Assembly (NCBI RefSeq): GCF_030143245.1
Contig: NZ_JARJNS010000006.1
Coordinates: forward strand, 62,001 to 126,000
DNA: 64,000 nt
Origin: Rhabdaerophilum sp. SD176
GTDB taxonomy: Bacteria > Pseudomonadota > Alphaproteobacteria > Rhizobiales > Beijerinckiaceae
Reading direction: 5' to 3'
The notes beneath the pieces are model-generated. The model was given only the letters and a program-made list of their open reading frames with translations. It did not search any database and was not told where the DNA came from. A program made the translations under genes and the position numbers. Shown here in pieces: positions 41,912 to 49,352 of the stretch (within the stretch, counting starts at the first letter, position 1; the number at the start of each line of letters is the position of its first letter).

Positions 41912-43099
41912 TCAGGCCGGGGCGCCCTGCGCTGCCACGGCCTGACGACGTTGCCGGAGCATCCGGAACCCGAAGGCAAGGCCGAAGCCGATGGCCAGCA
42001 CGATGATCGAGACGAGCGGCCGGTATGCGAACCAGGCCACGGCGATGACCGCGGGCCCAAGAATGGCGGTCGCTGCAGCTGCAACAAGCCCAACTGCGCC
42101 ACTGACAAGGCTCCCGAGCAGCGGAACATAGCTCGAGAGCAACGTCACCGGGGCGAAGAGCGACGAGAAGCCGATGAACATCACCAGAAGGCCGACGGCC
42201 CGAAGGATCCAGGTCAGGGTGACATTGTCCTGCTGGGCGGTCTCGAACATCTCGTCTGTGGTGCGGGTGCCCTTGGCTGCCAGCAGGAAGTCGCGGCCGT
42301 TCCGGGCCCTGTAGGGTTCGATGCCATCCGCCGTCTGCCGGCCGACGAAACTGGCCGTACCCTCGGGCAGGAGCTGATAGCTCACGCGCAGGCTGCCAAC
42401 CTGCGTGCCGTTCTGGTTGTTTGCGAGAAAGAGCATCCCGTCCCGCATCACGAGGGCTGACCCTGTTCGCCGGCGTGCAGTCTCGACCACCGTCGGATCA
42501 AGACGAAAATCGCTCGCTCCGGACAATCGTTGTATCGCATTACCAATAGGATAGGCTTCGATCTTCGCGTCGCGTGCAAAGAAAGATTCGGACGACCATC
42601 GCATTGGCGGGTTCTGATGTCCTTGCGGAACGCGGAACCGGCTCGAATCGACAGGGCGGTCGCTCCATTCCTGCGAATAGGTGAACTTGCGGTCCTGCCC
42701 CGAGCCCGATTCCTTCTCCACCCATTGGAGCATCTCGACCTTGCGGGAGAGCTTCAACCCCCGCGAACGGATGCCAAAAAGGTCATCTTGCACGCCACCG
42801 GCCGACCGGACCTCTCCGGTGACATGGACCAGCTTGCCGTCAAAAGCCGGGTCTCGGCGCTGGGTGCCGATGGATTGCACAAGCCCCTGCCCCTCTTCCA
42901 GCGCCCGCGCGGTCTTCACCGCCCGTCCCTCGTTCCAGAACAGGCCCCAGCAGGCCAGCGGGACCAGTAGCAGCCCCATCAGGATGGCGCCGAAACTGTT
43001 GGACAGCCTTTCGAGAAAGCCCTGCGGCGCGGCATGGACATCCTCGCCGGAGGGGCTGGAAACGGTGTCCTCGCCCCGGAATGGATCATTGTCTGACAT
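41912..43099 (-). CDS. TMEM43-family (DUF1625) membrane protein
   Basis: This 395-residue membrane protein resembles the TMEM43/LUMA family. The first helix at about residues 36-52 (AILMGLLLVPLACWGLFWNEGRA) ends in the family-typical WNEGRAVKTARAL. A long extramembrane domain with GKLVHVTGEV, VEMLQWVEKE and YSQEWSDRPVDSSRFR follows, with four C-terminal helices (about 290-385). Bacterial function is unknown. It is convergent with the DapA-like gene (9 bp) and divergent from the cyclase gene across 386 bp, so it could share regulation with the cyclase module. Confidence 0.85.
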   Translation of the reverse strand: MSDNDPFRGEDTVSSPSGEDVHAAPQGFLERLSNSFGAILMGLLLVPLACWGLFWNEGRAVKTARALEEGQGLVQSIGTQRRDPAFDGKLVHVTGEVRSAGGVQDDLFGIRSRGLKLSRKVEMLQWVEKESGSGQDRKFTYSQEWSDRPVDSSRFRVPQGHQNPPMRWSSESFFARDAKIEAYPIGNAIQRLSGASDFRLDPTVVETARRRTGSALVMRDGMLFLANNQNGTQVGSLRVSYQLLPEGTASFVGRQTADGIEPYRARNGRDFLLAAKGTRTTDEMFETAQQDNVTLTWILRAVGLLVMFIGFSSLFAPVTLLSSYVPLLGSLVSGAVGLVAAAATAILGPAVIAVAWFAYRPLVSIIVLAIGFGLAFGFRMLRQRRQAVAAQGAPA

Positions 43100-43485
43100 G
43101 GAACCCCCGCGCCCTGTGACCCCGCCGACTCACCCGATCGGCCATTCTTGCCGGGAATCCGGCGATATCTGCGGCGTTTTGTCCAGAACCTGCCGGCATT
43201 CCGCTGTTGATGTCCGGCTCATGCACTCGGGAATACGACTGGGGCCCTGATCGGCATATTCGAGAGAGCCTGTGGGTTTTGCCACAGATCAGGGCTGCGA
43301 AGATGCAAGGATGCAATCCGCCTTCCTTGTGTTTCCGAGAGCCGATGACCGAAAGCACGCCCCCCTGCCTGATCGAGCGCCAGCCTTCCTCTGCGAAGGC
43401 TGGCTCTCCCTCACGCCGGCCTCGCGTGACATCGCCACCGAAACTGCCTAGCTTCACCCCCCGATCCGATTGGCAGGGGGTGTCG
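43100..43485. other. 386-bp divergent intergenic region, TMEM43-like / cyclase
   Basis: Open frames run through this region but show no domain pattern, so I leave it non-coding. It holds the Crp-spaced palindrome at 43271-43286. I find no convincing -35/-10 pair by eye. Confidence 0.4.
43271..43286. promoter_or_regulatory. Crp/Fnr-type palindrome upstream of the cyclase gene
   Basis: TGTGGGTTTTGCCACA is a perfect 5-6-5 inverted repeat (TGTGG-N6-CCACA) with the spacing of the Crp site TGTGA-N6-TCACA. A flanking C-G pair extends it. It lies 199 bp before the cyclase ATG. A Crp/Fnr gene stands at the far end of the module. Confidence 0.5.
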
Positions 43486-45282
43486 ATGGCGGATGAGGGT
43501 TCGACGCTTCATCGGTTCGCGACGGGGGAACTCGCGTGGTCGAGCGGCGTGATCGTCTTCATCGACGTGATGGAATCCGTCCGGCTGACCGCCAGGGATG
43601 GCGGGCTCTTCATCACGCGCTGGATCGAACAGCGACAGGCCATCGAGGATCTCTTCGCCCGTGGTGACGGTCGGGTGATCCGGTCGACCGGAGACGGGAT
43701 CATCGGCCAGTTTTCCGAACCGCGAGCGGCTATCGCATCACTTTTCGAGGCCATGGCGATGGTCGAGCGCGCCAATACCGATCTCGCGGGCCCGCTGCCG
43801 ATTGCTATCCGCGTCGGGATGGCACGCGGCGAATTCCTGACAGACCGGCAGGACATCTACGGCCAGGCCGTCAATCTCGCGGCGCGCCTGTCCGGCCTCG
43901 GCATGCCCAGCGCCATTATTGTCCCCGAAGATCTCCGCGCGGACCTTGTCGACGGCGTCGACGCCGAGATCGAGGATCTCGGAACCTGTTTTCTCAAGCA
44001 CCTGGAGGCGCCTATCCGGGCCTATGCACTTCGTCCCGTCGGCAAGCGGCGGCTGCCGTTGATGCCGGCCCGCAATGATGCGCAACTCGTCCCCACGATT
44101 GCCGTAGTCCCGCTTGTGCCGATCCAGGGTGGACCGGCGCGGGATGCGCTCGGCGACATCATTGCCGATGAACTCATCTCTGCCCTCTCGGGTTCGCCCT
44201 ATCTGAATGTCATCTCGCGGCTCTCGGCCTCTGTGGCCCGGCAACGCGGCCTTTCGCCCGGGCTCGCGGCAGAGGCGTTGCAGGCCGACTATATCGTTTC
44301 GGGCACGTATTCCGCGCTTCAGGACAGGGTCAGGGCGACGCTCGAACTCACCGAAAGGAAGACGGGCCTTGTGCGGCTGGAGCAGCGCTTCTCCATGCCG
44401 GCGGAGGCGCTGATCACGGCGGAGTTCCATGGATTCGACGGATTCATCGCCGGGTTACTGCAGGCCGTGCTCCGGAACGAGGTCCAGCGCGTGCGGCGGC
44501 AGACCCTGCCCAGCCTCGAAAGCCATTCGTTGCTGCTCGGGGCCGTGAGCATGATGCACCGCGCCGGCCGGCAGGATTTTGCGTATGCGGCCGAGATCCT
44601 CTCCACCTTGATGGAACGCCATCCGCGCGAGACGCTTCCCTGCGCTTGGCTCGCCTGCTGGTACACGATCAAGGTGCAGAAGGGCCTCTCCGATGACCCT
44701 GCCCGCGAGGGGAACGAAGCGAGTGCTTTGGCGCGGCGGGCCATGGATCTCGACCCGGACAACCCGCTTGCGCTGGCGGTGGCCGGGTTGATCGAGACGA
44801 ATTTCGCCCGGCGCTTCGTCGATGCGGAAACCCTGCTGGACCGCGCGAGCGACCTCAATCCGAACGAGACCTATGCCCTCCTTCACAAAGCGGCCTTGCT
44901 GCAATTCACCGATCGCGGGGCGGAGGCCTATCCGATTGCGCGGCGGGCCATGATGCTCTCGCCGTTTGATCCGCATCGCTACTATTTCGAGGCCATTGCA
45001 GCCTCCTCTGCCTTCTCGGCCGGCAATTACGAGCTTGCACTCGCCCATGCCGACGAGGCGATCCGCGCCAACCGGCTCTACCCTTCCGGCAGCCGGGTCA
45101 GGGCCGCTACCCTCTGGCACCTCGGCCGGAAGGACGAGGCGCGGAAAACCGCGCAGGCGCTGCAGGATATTGAACCCAACCTCACGGTCGCACGGTGGCT
45201 GGCCAAATCCCCAGCAGCCGATTTCGATGTCGGCAACCGGATGGCGGCAGGATTGCGCGGCGCGGGAATCGCGGAAAACTAA
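43486..45282 (+). CDS. Class III nucleotide cyclase with C-terminal TPR domain
   Basis: This 598-residue protein has a cyclase domain at residues 20-170 with the key residues in place: metal Asp27 in FIDVMES, Asp70 in STGDGIIGQF, and transition-state Asn130 and Arg134 in AVNLAARL. Residues 190-330 resemble the FlgO/TolB-N-like middle domain common in rhizobial cyclases (TIAVVPLVPIQGG...DELISALS). The rest is TPR-like helices (ARRAMDLDPDNPLALAVAGL; ASDLNPNETYALLHKAALL). It probably makes cAMP in the cytosol. ATG 43486 follows GGGGG. It is 29 bp before the NGL-repeat gene, so co-transcribed. Confidence 0.85.
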   Translation: MADEGSTLHRFATGELAWSSGVIVFIDVMESVRLTARDGGLFITRWIEQRQAIEDLFARGDGRVIRSTGDGIIGQFSEPRAAIASLFEAMAMVERANTDLAGPLPIAIRVGMARGEFLTDRQDIYGQAVNLAARLSGLGMPSAIIVPEDLRADLVDGVDAEIEDLGTCFLKHLEAPIRAYALRPVGKRRLPLMPARNDAQLVPTIAVVPLVPIQGGPARDALGDIIADELISALSGSPYLNVISRLSASVARQRGLSPGLAAEALQADYIVSGTYSALQDRVRATLELTERKTGLVRLEQRFSMPAEALITAEFHGFDGFIAGLLQAVLRNEVQRVRRQTLPSLESHSLLLGAVSMMHRAGRQDFAYAAEILSTLMERHPRETLPCAWLACWYTIKVQKGLSDDPAREGNEASALARRAMDLDPDNPLALAVAGLIETNFARRFVDAETLLDRASDLNPNETYALLHKAALLQFTDRGAEAYPIARRAMMLSPFDPHRYYFEAIAASSAFSAGNYELALAHADEAIRANRLYPSGSRVRAATLWHLGRKDEARKTAQALQDIEPNLTVARWLAKSPAADFDVGNRMAAGLRGAGIAEN

Positions 45283-45311: not shown

Positions 45312-46547
45312 ATGTCGTTTGCCAACGGATTGAATGGGCTGAATGGCCTTAACGGGCTCAACGGCCTCAATGGTCTCAACGGCCTTAACGGGCTGAATGG
45401 CCTGAATGGCCTGAACGGCCTCAACGGTTTGAACGGCCTCAACGGGCTCAATGGCCTGAACGGACTTTCCGGCAGCTGGAACGCGGCTCCGGGCAGCGCC
45501 CTGACGATCCATGAGGCGCTGGCCGGACTCTACGCGCCGCCGTCATCCTTGCCCGGGCCGGTTCCCGCCACCGAGCAGGACAGCCTCGCCCGCTGGTCAA
45601 GTGATGTGCGCGCCCGCATCCTCGATGCCGAACTGTTCTCGCAGCTCGCCTTTTCGGCTGATCCGGCCAATCCGCGCGGCTTCATTGTCCATTCCTCGCA
45701 GCAAAGCTGGACCAGCGAGCCTGGCGGCCCGCATCTCTCGGCCCAGTACGACCCCATCGTGACAATGGTTCCGCCAAGCATCGCCCAGCTGGGTGACCGG
45801 CAACTGGCGCTGGTGGCCAATGCGGCCCTCCTCCGCGGAGACCGGATCCACGAGATCCTCGGCCAGATCCCGGCGCCGTTGCCTTATCTCGGCATGTTTG
45901 TCCCGCTTTCAGAGGAGCGGACGCGCTGGACGCTCGAATTGTTGTCGACAGTCTTTCGCCTGTCTGTCTTTGTCGAGATGGCCTTCAAACACGCTTTCTC
46001 GCTGCCGCGCCCGAACCAGCTTTCACCCCAGATCAACCCGGTCATCCCGACCCCGATGCACGGCACGCTGCCGAGCGGGCATGCGACGGAAGCCTTCGCC
46101 ATGGTGGCCTTGCTGGTCGAGCTTCTGGAAAAGGCCGGCGCCCGCGAGGCAGGACGGCCCTGGCGGGAGCGGCTGTTCAAGCTGGCGGACCGGATCGCCT
46201 ATAACCGGACCGTGGCCGGCGTTCACTTCCCCGTCGACAATGCAGCAGGTGCCATGCTCGGGGTTGCCCTGGCCCGATATCTCGCCGCGCGCTGCCAGGG
46301 ATCCGAGGCGTCCTGCCATTCGTGGCATTTCGATGCCTCGACTTTCTGCGGGGACGAGCCCGACGGCTTCTTCGATCACGCCGCCCTGATCCGGCAGATG
46401 GATATCGGAGATGGCCCGCCCGCCGATGCTGCCGAGGCGGGTGCCCCGGCCGTTGTTGCGGGCCTCAGCGTCCAGGCCCGGCTGACGCTCGGCTCCTCGG
46501 GCGTGCTCGGCTGGCTCTGGCAGCAGGCGCTCGCGGAATGGGCCTGA
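45312..46547 (+). CDS. NGL-repeat PAP2/vanadium-haloperoxidase-fold protein
   Basis: The 411-residue product starts MSFA, then sixteen perfect Asn-Gly-Leu triplets (residues 5-52), then a PAP2/VHPO-like domain. The anion site is complete: Lys226-x6-Arg233-Pro (KHAFSLPRP), Ser255-Gly-His257 (LPSGHA) and Arg299-x5-His305-x3-Asp309 (NRTVAGVHFPVD). It could be a phosphatase or a vanadate-dependent peroxidase; sequence alone does not decide. There is no signal peptide. AGGAG precedes the ATG. It lies between the cyclase and subtilase genes in one operon. I know of no described protein with this head. Confidence 0.85.
   Translation: MSFANGLNGLNGLNGLNGLNGLNGLNGLNGLNGLNGLNGLNGLNGLNGLNGLSGSWNAAPGSALTIHEALAGLYAPPSSLPGPVPATEQDSLARWSSDVRARILDAELFSQLAFSADPANPRGFIVHSSQQSWTSEPGGPHLSAQYDPIVTMVPPSIAQLGDRQLALVANAALLRGDRIHEILGQIPAPLPYLGMFVPLSEERTRWTLELLSTVFRLSVFVEMAFKHAFSLPRPNQLSPQINPVIPTPMHGTLPSGHATEAFAMVALLVELLEKAGAREAGRPWRERLFKLADRIAYNRTVAGVHFPVDNAAGAMLGVALARYLAARCQGSEASCHSWHFDASTFCGDEPDGFFDHAALIRQMDIGDGPPADAAEAGAPAVVAGLSVQARLTLGSSGVLGWLWQQALAEWA
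45324..45467 (+). repeat. Sixteen 9-bp units encoding Asn-Gly-Leu
   Basis: Every unit encodes NGL without exception, but the codons vary (AAC/AAT; GGA/GGC/GGG/GGT; TTG/CTG/CTC/CTT). Protein identity with synonymous drift means the tract is old and kept by selection on the peptide, not a fresh slippage product. Confidence 0.95.
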
Positions 46548-46578: not shown

Positions 46579-48663
46579 ATGACGTGGCGAACCGGCACCA
46601 GCGCCTATCAATCGCTCCCGCTGGCCATGGACCCGCTGGCAGACTGGATCCGCCCCGAGGTCGTTCGCAGCCCGACCGGCCGGACCCTCCTGCTGGTCCG
46701 GCTGGCCGAAGGCGTGGACATTGCAGCGCTCCGCAGCTTCCGGCATGCGCCGGACCCCAACCGGCTTTTCGTGCATCAGGGCCGCGGTGTCACGACAGGC
46801 CAATGGCACCAGACGCTGGATATCCCCGCGACGGCCAGCGGCACCTGGAGCAAGGCGCGTTACCTCACTGCCCGCGCATTGCCGCTCTTCTTCGAGTGGC
46901 TGCTGGCTTCATCCTCGGTCCAGAGCCTGTTCGACGAGATCACGCTCTGCCAGTCGATCGACGCGCCGCCCGCGCCACTCCGCCTCCGCAGCGCGGCGCT
47001 TGCAGCGCCCATGGCAAAGCCGCGGGATGTCCGGGTGCTGACCGGCATCATTGATCACGGGTTTCCGGTGGCCGGTCCGGTTTTCTCGCGCCGCTCGGCT
47101 GGGCAGGGAGGTTGGGGCACCCGGCTTCGGGCGCTCTGGATCCAGGATGGCCGGCCGGCTGCCGCTCATCCCGATCAGGGCCTCGCCTCGCCGGAAGGGT
47201 TCGAATACGGCGCAAAGATTTCCGGCGAAGGCATTGTCCGGCATCTCGCCAGCGTGGATGGGGACGAGGATCGGTTCTATGCCGCGACCGGCCTTTTCCG
47301 GAGCCATGACCGGGACAGCTACTGGACCCAGCTTTCCGCCAGCCACGGCGCCCATGTCTCCGGCCTCGCGCTCGACCCCTCGGGCCCAGTGGACGGATCG
47401 GAGCCGGTTGTCGCCGTGCACCTGCCGAAAACCACGGTCGATGACAGTTCGGGCGCGGCCCTTTCGGCGCATGCCTTCGATGCGCTGCGCTTTATCCTCG
47501 CCGAAGCGGAACACATTGCCCATCCAGCGCCTGCGCCGCTTTTCGTGCTGGACGAGGGGCAGCCCCGGCCTCAACCGGAAGCGATTGCCGTGCCCCCGGT
47601 GGTTGTGAATCTGAGCTACGGGTTCAATGCCGGCCCGCATGATGGCGAGGGGCCGCTGGAGAAGGCGCTGCTCGAGATGCAGACCCTGTGGAGCCGCGCA
47701 CATCCGCGTTCGCCGCTGGTCATCGTGCTGCCGGCGGGCAATGGCTACCAATCCCAGACCTTCGCCCAATGGGATCGGCATGCCCTGAGCGATCCGGCAA
47801 AAGCCCGCGTCATCTGGGAAATTCCCCCGGATGACGGCAGCGCCAATTCGGTCCAGATCTGGTTGCCGCGGGGCTTCCGGGGCAAAGCGCATATCACTCT
47901 GACCTCGCCCTCCGGCGCCTCAATGCGGCTGGGCAACCGGAAGGGCACAATCGCCGATCTGCAGGGCCGTTCCGGCGTGCCTGTGGCCATGGGGCTCTAT
48001 TGCGCGCCGCAGGCTTCCCGCCCGCGCGGGATGTTCCAGCTTGTGGTCGGGCCGACCCAGCCGGATGCGGTCAACCGCTCGGCCAGCGGCGCGTGGGAAA
48101 TCCGGATCGAGGCCACGGGGCTGCTGCGGAACGAAGCCATCGAAGCCTGGGTGCAGCGGGATGACCTGCCCGTCGCCACGGCGAGACCCTCACGCCAATC
48201 GCGGTTCCGGCATGCCGATTTCCGCCCGTTCGATCCGCCCGGCCAACCCGGCGATGGCTCAAGAGAGACGAGCCCCGTCCAGCGGCCGGGCAGCCTGAAT
48301 GCACTCGCCACAGGGCCCCGCACGCTGGTGATTGGCGCCTGCGCCGCGCGCAAGATCTTCCCGATCGAGGTCTCGCTTTATTCCGGCGGCGGTCGGCCCG
48401 AATGGCAGAACGGGGTCGATGGCCTTGCCGCCTCCGATGATTCCGCCTTGCTCCCGGGGCGCCTTTCCTCGGGCATGCGGGCAGCGGGTTCGATCCGCTT
48501 GTTCGGTACGAGTATGGCCGCGGCCATGGCGACGCGGGAAATTGCCCGTTTGATCCACCGGTTCCGGCGCGGCAAGCCCAAGACCGTCTTTGCGCAGATG
48601 CTGGTCGACCCGCCCGTCCCTGTGCCGGATGCGAGGCGCGGAAATGGCCGGCTCGCGCCGTAG
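46579..48663 (+). CDS. Subtilisin-like (S8) serine protease with a large insertion
   Basis: This 694-residue protease has the S8 triad Asp159 (TGIIDHGF), His256 (SASHGAHVSGLA) and Ser645 (FGTSMAAAM), plus the oxyanion Asn388 (LPAGNGY). The gap between Asn388 and Ser645 is about 257 residues, much more than in subtilisin, so a beta-rich domain is inserted (HITLTSPSGASMRLG...GAWEIRIEATG). The 140-residue N-terminal part has no signal peptide, so the enzyme may be cytosolic. AAGGGAGG precedes the ATG. It follows the NGL-repeat gene by 31 bp and is convergent with the Crp/Fnr gene (8 bp). Confidence 0.88.
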   Translation: MTWRTGTSAYQSLPLAMDPLADWIRPEVVRSPTGRTLLLVRLAEGVDIAALRSFRHAPDPNRLFVHQGRGVTTGQWHQTLDIPATASGTWSKARYLTARALPLFFEWLLASSSVQSLFDEITLCQSIDAPPAPLRLRSAALAAPMAKPRDVRVLTGIIDHGFPVAGPVFSRRSAGQGGWGTRLRALWIQDGRPAAAHPDQGLASPEGFEYGAKISGEGIVRHLASVDGDEDRFYAATGLFRSHDRDSYWTQLSASHGAHVSGLALDPSGPVDGSEPVVAVHLPKTTVDDSSGAALSAHAFDALRFILAEAEHIAHPAPAPLFVLDEGQPRPQPEAIAVPPVVVNLSYGFNAGPHDGEGPLEKALLEMQTLWSRAHPRSPLVIVLPAGNGYQSQTFAQWDRHALSDPAKARVIWEIPPDDGSANSVQIWLPRGFRGKAHITLTSPSGASMRLGNRKGTIADLQGRSGVPVAMGLYCAPQASRPRGMFQLVVGPTQPDAVNRSASGAWEIRIEATGLLRNEAIEAWVQRDDLPVATARPSRQSRFRHADFRPFDPPGQPGDGSRETSPVQRPGSLNALATGPRTLVIGACAARKIFPIEVSLYSGGGRPEWQNGVDGLAASDDSALLPGRLSSGMRAAGSIRLFGTSMAAAMATREIARLIHRFRRGKPKTVFAQMLVDPPVPVPDARRGNGRLAP

Positions 48664-48671
48664 AGGCTGGC

Positions 48672-49352
48672 TCAGCCTGAATCCGGATCGGCAAGGGCCC
48701 GAAGCCGGGGCAGATCGAGGATTTCGATCGTCTGGCGCCCTGTCCGCAGAATTCCTTGGGTGGCCAGGAAAGCGAGTTCCCGCGTTACGGCCTCGCGATG
48801 CGTCGCGGTCAGCGCCGCAATTTCGTAATGGGTCGGCGCAGGTTTGATGGTGCAGGCACTGCCCGGCCGGCGGGCCTGCTCGGCAAGGCGAAGAATTGCC
48901 TTCCGGATCCGGATCGGGACGGGGTAGACCGTGAACTCGAACACGCGCGCCGAGAGATCGCGCAGCTTGCGGACCAGTTCGCGCGACAGGTTCAGGCCGA
49001 TGCGCGGATAGCGCAGGATGAATTCGTTGAACTGCTCGCCCCGCATCCGGGCGATCCGCGCCTCGCCGATGGCAATCACATCCGCCGAGCGAAGCTGGCC
49101 GTCGACCGCCGCGAATTCCCCGAAATAGGATCCTTCCGCGATGTCGAGATACACGACTTCATGGCCATCCGGCGCGAAGCGCTTGGCCTGCACGCGCCCC
49201 GACAGCACGAAGAAGATATCGGTGTTGGGTTCGTCGGTGCTGATGATCGCCTTTCCGGCCGCATAGCGGCGCACGACCACGGCCTGTTCCAGCACCGCAA
49301 TCGCCGCAGCGTCCAGCCCTTGGAAAAGAACGATTTCCGACAGTTCCGACAT
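48672..49352 (-). CDS. Crp/Fnr-family transcriptional regulator
   Basis: This 226-residue regulator has a cyclic-nucleotide-binding domain (about residues 8-125). Its phosphate-binding cassette SYFGEFAAVDGQLRSAD keeps Glu79 and Arg88-Ser89, as in cAMP-binding members. The C-terminal winged helix reads THYEIAALTATHREAVTRELAFLATQGIL. There are no Fnr-type cysteine clusters. It is convergent with the subtilase gene, and a cyclase is encoded three genes away, so a local cyclic-nucleotide circuit is plausible. A candidate target is the palindrome at 43271. Confidence 0.9.
   Translation of the reverse strand: MSELSEIVLFQGLDAAAIAVLEQAVVVRRYAAGKAIISTDEPNTDIFFVLSGRVQAKRFAPDGHEVVYLDIAEGSYFGEFAAVDGQLRSADVIAIGEARIARMRGEQFNEFILRYPRIGLNLSRELVRKLRDLSARVFEFTVYPVPIRIRKAILRLAEQARRPGSACTIKPAPTHYEIAALTATHREAVTRELAFLATQGILRTGRQTIEILDLPRLRALADPDSG

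Follow-up and report, generated by a model that had tools for sequence, protein, structure and literature searches.

What keeps sixteen copies of one tripeptide perfect at the start of a bacterial enzyme? The question is raised by an open reading frame (ORF) in the window, that is, the whole 64,000-nucleotide stretch of the Rhabdaerophilum sp. SD176 genome analysed here. An earlier note on this DNA described sixteen Asn-Gly-Leu (NGL) triplets joined to a PAP2 catalytic domain beside an S8 peptidase, a fusion that proved to be real and general across relatives; in other genera the architecture is shared and the repeated word is different.

The window locus and its PAP2 enzyme

The array-PAP2 protein (411 aa; 45312..46547, + strand) begins with MSFA, continues with (NGL)16 at its N-terminus (48 codons; 45324..45467, + strand) and then reads SGSWN. 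An AGGAG-like site precedes its ATG, and no signal peptide was seen by eye. Searching with three exact NGL units returned the array as the sole matching place in its own genome, and one place each in 5 of the 8 genus genomes searched. Both flanking genes lie on the same strand as the PAP2 gene. The S8-type (subtilase) peptidase (694 aa; 46579..48663, + strand) starts 31 bp downstream and matches PF00082 with an E value of 9.6e-4 and 19 bits, just under the cut-off of 21.8. The regulator gene (43486..45282, + strand) ends 29 bp upstream and encodes a class III nucleotide cyclase domain, a weak FlgO-like match and C-terminal TPR (Pfam PF00211, 4.3e-5, and PF14559, 1.6e-5; FlgO, 0.009, below cut-off); its start Met was picked by inspection, the longest ORF starting at 43207. 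A convergent Crp/Fnr-type regulator (48672..49352, - strand; Pfam cNMP_binding, 1e-17) follows the peptidase. Upstream of the module, this bacterial genome also encodes a TMEM43-like protein (41912-43099, - strand; Pfam PF07787, 3.3e-61).

The enzyme belongs to the PAP2 superfamily (Pfam PF01569, residues 213-324, E 1.8e-15, 57.3 bits against a cut-off of 27.2). It carries K-x6-RP, PSGH and NR-x5-H-x3-D, which we take to be the three catalytic motif forms of the superfamily, and in 13 aligned domains K174, R181-P182, P202-S203, H205, N246-R247, H253 and D257 were invariant and G204 nearly so. The closest solved relatives by sequence were the acid phosphatase 7f17/7f18 (2.4e-10 and 4.1e-10) and the LpxE structure 6ebu (2.4e-6), and the vanadium bromoperoxidase 1qi9 matched weakly (0.073); on sequence, acid phosphatases thus appear closer to the window protein than haloperoxidases. 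The PAP2 soluble phosphatases and vanadium haloperoxidases share family and catalytic motifs with the array-PAP2 protein but have neither the word array nor the near-constant regulator and peptidase neighbors. None of the NCBIfam and PADLOC models names the protein above cut-off, and searches of openly licensed PMC papers turned up none on the family.

AlphaFold2 modelled the window protein with a confident PAP2 domain (mean pLDDT 76.6, pTM 0.75) and gave the single-chain array a pLDDT of about 30, with residues 1-62 below 50. A relative with a positively charged AGR array was modelled similarly (array pLDDT about 30, residues 1-47 low). The array is predicted to be disordered.

Uniform arrays, scrambled codons and changing words

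The sixteen NGL units are encoded by 11 different 9-mers, all of whose differences are synonymous. Asn is specified by AAC (10) and AAT (6), Gly by GGC (8), GGG (4), GGA (2) and GGT (2), and Leu by CTC (6), CTG (5), CTT (3) and TTG (2). Mean DNA identity between units was 0.766, compared with 0.786 expected with random synonymous codons (z -1.0). Four congeners whose proteins are 85-95% identical carry fifteen or sixteen NGL units, so that the count in orthologues suggested by the earlier note gave 15-16 per array in five congeners. We aligned these arrays at the best unit offset before counting changes. In all ten pairs, the array showed 0 amino-acid changes and 19-28 synonymous changes in 45-48 codons, whereas over 359 codons of the PAP2 domain the same pairs showed 18-55 amino-acid changes and 77-136 synonymous ones. 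The constraint on the peptide is thus tighter than that on the enzyme, which bears out the proposed long-term selection on the array.

To see how general the array is, we surveyed PAP2 homologs. The protein was present in 90 of 374 genomes of one family (that of genome G706; E <= 1e-40). In wider samples (E <= 1e-20, overlapping in part) it was less common, with 13/385 genomes of the class, 20/398 of the phylum and 1/274 of the class of G456. Culturable Phaeobacter and Rhizobium also carry the module on plasmids, and the phage records searched gave no match. Of 188 PAP2 ORFs, combined from sets of 89 and 99 with a few counted twice, 185 bear a tandem array of perfect peptide units, in most cases right at the N-terminus. 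In the first set, reduced from 90 to 89 by removing identical PAP2 domains, three or more perfect units were present in 88; the remaining one, L022, starts at a contig end. In the second set, from 98 loci fetched in the G706 family survey, 97/99 had an array; the exceptions were L210, which is frameshifted, and L249, which is imperfect. Among the relatives examined, none that was intact lacked a repeat altogether; such an ortholog had been named in the earlier note as evidence against its view. The array of L210 (word GAQ) is read in a different frame, and this locus is apparently a decaying copy. L249, with the hexamers NTRSGA/NTRSGL/NTRSHL/NTRMGF, is the only member seen that looks intact and yet has units that clearly differ along the whole array. 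Two plasmid loci also appear to be decaying and still have uniform arrays: L125 (Parasedimentitalea marina), in which PAP2 is split, and L103 (Phaeobacter inhibens M647), in which module genes are annotated as shortened.

Among the 185 arrays, a pool that keeps near-identical strains (Phaeobacter) and probably some loci fetched twice (e.g., L026 and L164), we counted 103 distinct words, each 2-6 residues long: 151 arrays were built of triplets, 21 of quadruplets, 8 of pairs, 3 of five-residue and 2 of six-residue words. The median copy number was 9, with at least five copies in 177 arrays and fewer in 8. In 161/185 cases no more than 15 residues separated the array from the nearest Met upstream, and 12 had no in-frame upstream Met. 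In a distant branch (L089, L094, L131 and L133) the arrays are dipeptide repeats (NK, TK, NR), and those of L089 and L094 sit well inside the ORF rather than at its start. As a control, arrays of at least five copies occurred in 178 PAP2 ORFs, compared with 0/173 S8 and 0/184 regulator ORFs of the same loci. A scan of 4,176 ORFs of at least 150 aa found 191 with such an array, comprising the 178 PAP2 ORFs and 13 others, several of which resemble antisense readings of an array. Chance is excluded as the source of the arrays.

Words from distant genera include MGH, SGGT, GGH, MAS, TAM, GGK, GGGGA, GES, GSF and GGQ, as well as GVS, GGF, NSF, NAD, ARD, TGN, ENA, AGR, QTQ, NQG and others. In the 103 words Gly was over-represented (105 versus 25 expected) and Pro under-represented (4 versus 21.2). 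An initial impression from 43 words that Pro, Tyr and Trp were absent was dropped, because the 103 words show Pro to be rare and Tyr and Trp to be present. Net array charge spans -14 to +13. This diversity bears on the suggestion of the earlier note that the period-3 Gly might form a collagen-like or polyglycine-II bundle. Gly enrichment fits that suggestion, the collagen-like bacterial adhesins Scl and Lcl likewise have Gly at each third residue, as do many array words, and Pfam Collagen (PF01391) matches the NGL array at 6.9e-8 (32.6 bits against a cut-off of 27.2); NCBIfam collagen-like matches to it fall far below cut-off. However, the NGL array has Gly at every third residue without any Pro, unlike a Pro-rich Gly-X-Y repeat. 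Among the relatives, which do not need Gly, it is absent from 32/103 words, and periods of 2, 4, 5 and 6 occur. With the Pro depletion, the charge range and single-chain models that lack order (pLDDT about 30), the bundle is not supported as a general explanation, and we consider it highly improbable.

Words change quickly. In the first set (97 later arrays left out), the same word was shared by 60/60 pairs with PAP2 identity of at least 90%, 18/19 at 80-90% and 18/28 at 70-80%, then by 2/21 at 60-70%, 4/29 at 50-60%, 10/139 at 40-50% and 17/3,532 below 40%; below 70%, words are mostly lost (33/3,721 pairs share). A tree of the 185 proteins required no fewer than 120 word changes, compared with at least 162 in 200 label shuffles, and only 12 changes of word length, compared with at least 29. 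Of 55 sister pairs, 30 had different words, and 12 of those 30 were one edit apart, compared with 6.7% of random word pairs. This result suggests that one residue is often swapped in every unit, and such switches were SGV/TGV/AGV in one genus, SGGT/SGGA and NGK/NGR. The N-terminus of L130 reads NAH three times and then TAQ four times, with three TAQ units identical in DNA; this two-word array is probably a word switch in progress. In Phaeobacter, nine of 21 records vary in copy number (NSF 5-7) at a constant word. Arrays with different words have mostly lost codon homology position by position: of 22 pairs tested it was clear only in L081/L106, which share a word, and borderline in L106/L107 (8/500 shuffles), so unit-by-unit change cannot be told from re-expansion. 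Different words within two-copy genomes (G310, G743, G152, G799, G802 and G808) were not counted as evidence: among unrelated copies, a shared word occurs in only some 0.5% of pairs in any case.

We compared codons across the family using one array per word and at least six copies (n = 89). In 79/89 arrays the likeness of the units in DNA did not exceed that expected from codon usage (z <= 2). Nine of the ten arrays with z > 2 contain Ser; a trace of duplication survives there because no single synonymous step joins the two Ser codon families. Neighboring units resembled each other less than they do after shuffling in 79/89 arrays (Stouffer -11.2 at lag 1), with an excess of likeness at lag 2 (+4.2) and a weaker one at lags 3 and 4 (+1.3 and +2.2); an earlier redundancy-reduced set had shown the same avoidance at lag one in 48/55. 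Synonymous codons had been said to vary freely within the NGL tract. All unit differences are indeed synonymous, but the variation is not wholly free, since adjacent units avoid likeness. This codon order fits selection against slippage, by which the peptide stays repetitive and the DNA does not. It follows from these data that units must match each other while the word is free to change.

The same data weigh on the simplest alternative, that the array is only a flexible linker whose uniformity is left over from DNA duplication. The predicted disorder, the copy-number variation between strains, the identical DNA units in some arrays (the NAH/TAQ array of L130) and the codon-family memory in Ser words all accord with a linker of this kind. 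Nevertheless, neutral duplication cannot yield randomized synonymous sites with unchanged amino acids, as seen in those 79 arrays, and adjacent units tend not to use the same codons. This reading is disfavoured, and we regard it as improbable. Short tandem repeat tracts of variable copy number near the start of an ORF are also known from phase-variable bacterial genes. The arrays resemble them in position, tandem layout and varying copy number, but their whole-codon units keep the frame and their codons are randomized and neighbor-avoiding, so slippage appears to be selected against. On these grounds, neither neutral slippage nor phase variation was retained as an explanation. Copy-number variation without codon drift, which the earlier note had named as a sign against selection, was borne out only in its first half: copy number varies (NGL 15-16, NSF 5-7), and codon drift is present.

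The conserved module and candidate readers of the array

A TPR regulator, the array-PAP2 enzyme and a peptidase are encoded, in this order, by a conserved module. The regulator was found in 184/188 loci and the S8 peptidase, by model, in 173/188. Of the remaining 15 loci, five have a Peptidase_A4 neighbor (three by Pfam, two by a derived model), four (L070, L089, L131 and L133) have an S8 found by Pfam and missed by the model, two (L152 and L239) leave the contig downstream, and L075, L094, L244 and L255 were not counted either way. The Asp, His, Asn and Ser columns, that is, the subtilase triad (Asp-His-Ser) plus the oxyanion Asn, were kept in 40/40 complete S8 homologs aligned, the 41st being truncated; this alignment supersedes a regular-expression scan for S8 motifs (20/41). 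The regulator's output domain varies, being a cyclase in 26/90 loci and a winged helix or SARP in others, and a Crp gene similar to that of the window lies near 14/90 loci. A heme peroxidase lies beside the module in L133 (6434-8486, annotated), next to a C1-family peptidase, and a peroxidase-like gene, identified by eye, in L032 (9477-11276); a heme peroxidase may be an extension of the module. The cyclase regulator matched PycC at 0.004, the only hit among five module proteins searched with PADLOC models; PAP2, S8, Peptidase_A4 (L072) and the winged-helix regulator (L095) gave nothing, and by this measure the module does not match a known anti-phage defence system.

A peptidase beside a run of identical peptides suggests that the array itself could be the product. 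The peptidase would cut it into identical short peptides with a signal or antimicrobial role; the PAP2 domain, being fused to the array, would act on its own tail, and the word would be species-specific as for a signal. Identical N-terminal repeats fused to an enzyme with a dedicated peptidase alongside, and the 103 words, agree with such a multicore precursor. There is also a real precedent for the layout in the plant precursors described in PMC12186524, the burpitide cyclases, as there is in the borosins: core and enzyme form one chain with multiple identical cores. The split precursors in that paper, however, carry recognition sequences, which the arrays here do not have; the units abut without spacer or recognition sequence, the words are only 2-6 residues long, and a PAP2 domain stands in place of a known RiPP enzyme. 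Moreover, many words (GGA, GGV, AGI, GGL) lack a side chain that could be modified, an exporter was not recognized among the constant parts of the module, and the loss of one of 16 copies should be near-neutral, yet units are strictly conserved. We consider the precursor unlikely.

Alternatively, the neighboring peptidase could be what reads the array, as its cognate substrate, docking site or decoy, in which case the word would co-evolve with the peptidase and not with PAP2. The peptidase adjoins in nearly all loci with intact catalytic residues, an unrelated peptidase family fills its slot in one branch, and Pro is depleted in the words, all of which would suit such a role. We asked which module protein changes with the array, by three approaches.

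Array charge was negatively correlated with the charge of the first 60 residues after the array (Spearman -0.51, p 2.8e-8, 103 words). Little link was seen in the rest of the domain, where residues 180-210 gave a weak one (-0.23), and none was found with the peptidase (0.06) or the regulator (-0.12; 91 words). This mirroring is carried by 23 charged words. In 23 contrasts between closest relatives, the correlation for the first 90 residues was -0.51 with a sign count of 11:8 (p 0.65), and the sign count for the whole post-array protein was 15:7 (p 0.13). Simple local charge balancing could be its source.

In genus g347, 16 pairs with different words differ by 27-33% in the PAP2 domain at a PAP2 fourfold divergence of 0.29-0.60, whereas the five same-word pairs differ by 2% (0.10), 13% (0.26), 9% (0.39), 22% (0.45) and 20% (0.49). 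The S8 and regulator proteins show no comparable jump at word switches, except that the S8 of L147 has itself diverged, which makes comparisons with L147 less clear. Horizontal replacement of PAP2 as the cause is disfavoured, since fourfold divergence is about that of neighboring genes; in several AGV pairs it is somewhat higher in PAP2 than in S8 (e.g., 0.41 versus 0.31), so partial replacement by recombination is possible. No PAP2 acceleration accompanied the SGGT/SGGA switch (PAP2 0.11, S8 0.21) or the GGF/NSF switch (PAP2 0.32-0.37, S8 0.49-0.54).

In partial Mantel tests on 76 loci, unit distance tracked S8 (0.18, above all 200 permutations) and the regulator (0.19) given PAP2, and did not track PAP2 given the others (-0.01). 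Two tests thus favor reading by the PAP2 protein itself and one opposes it, and none is conclusive. For a peptidase reader, the S8 value counts in favor, but the regulator scores equally high, array charge is not linked to the peptidase, S8 does not accelerate at the g347 switches, and 103 chemically unlike words face mostly one peptidase family. Reading by the peptidase is, in our judgement, doubtful.

A possible self-type tag

Over the peptidase-read tag and the multicore precursor we favor, tentatively, a third reading: the NGL tract may be a disordered, multivalent self-type tag that its own PAP2 protein reads and the module's peptidase trims. The near-universal array, uniform peptide, scrambled neighbor-avoiding codons, fast word turnover, conserved neighborhood and charge mirroring are computed; what the matching of units is for, we infer. 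The N-terminus would bear many copies of one word whose identity is arbitrary and whose uniformity is selected. To be read by the PAP2 protein, the array would either fold back onto its own chain or dock to a neighboring copy, and this reading would hold the enzyme masked or clustered. The TPR regulator would switch the module on, and the co-encoded peptidase (S8, or Peptidase_A4 in one branch) would trim the array, by which the enzyme would be released or switched. A mismatched unit would weaken the tag and be purged by selection, whereas a new word could spread through unit expansion, after which codon divergence would restabilize the array. Several results speak against this self-type tag: the array is modelled without order, the g347 acceleration was seen in one genus only, and the partial Mantel ranking is opposite, placing S8 and the regulator over PAP2. 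Strongly charged arrays argue against plain self-association.

Selection that enforces the sameness of units and leaves the unit sequence free is unusual. Enforced sameness implies a reader or a self-matching function, and none of the family models searched explains it. The codon pattern is a clean natural case of a repetitive protein whose DNA is selected not to repeat. It is possible, at well short of even confidence, that the array is a peptide "password" of arbitrary sequence, present in typically 4 to 20 uniform copies, rewritten array-wide, codon-scrambled and read by the enzyme. If this is true, self-type identity in the family would be coded by repetition and not by a fixed motif.
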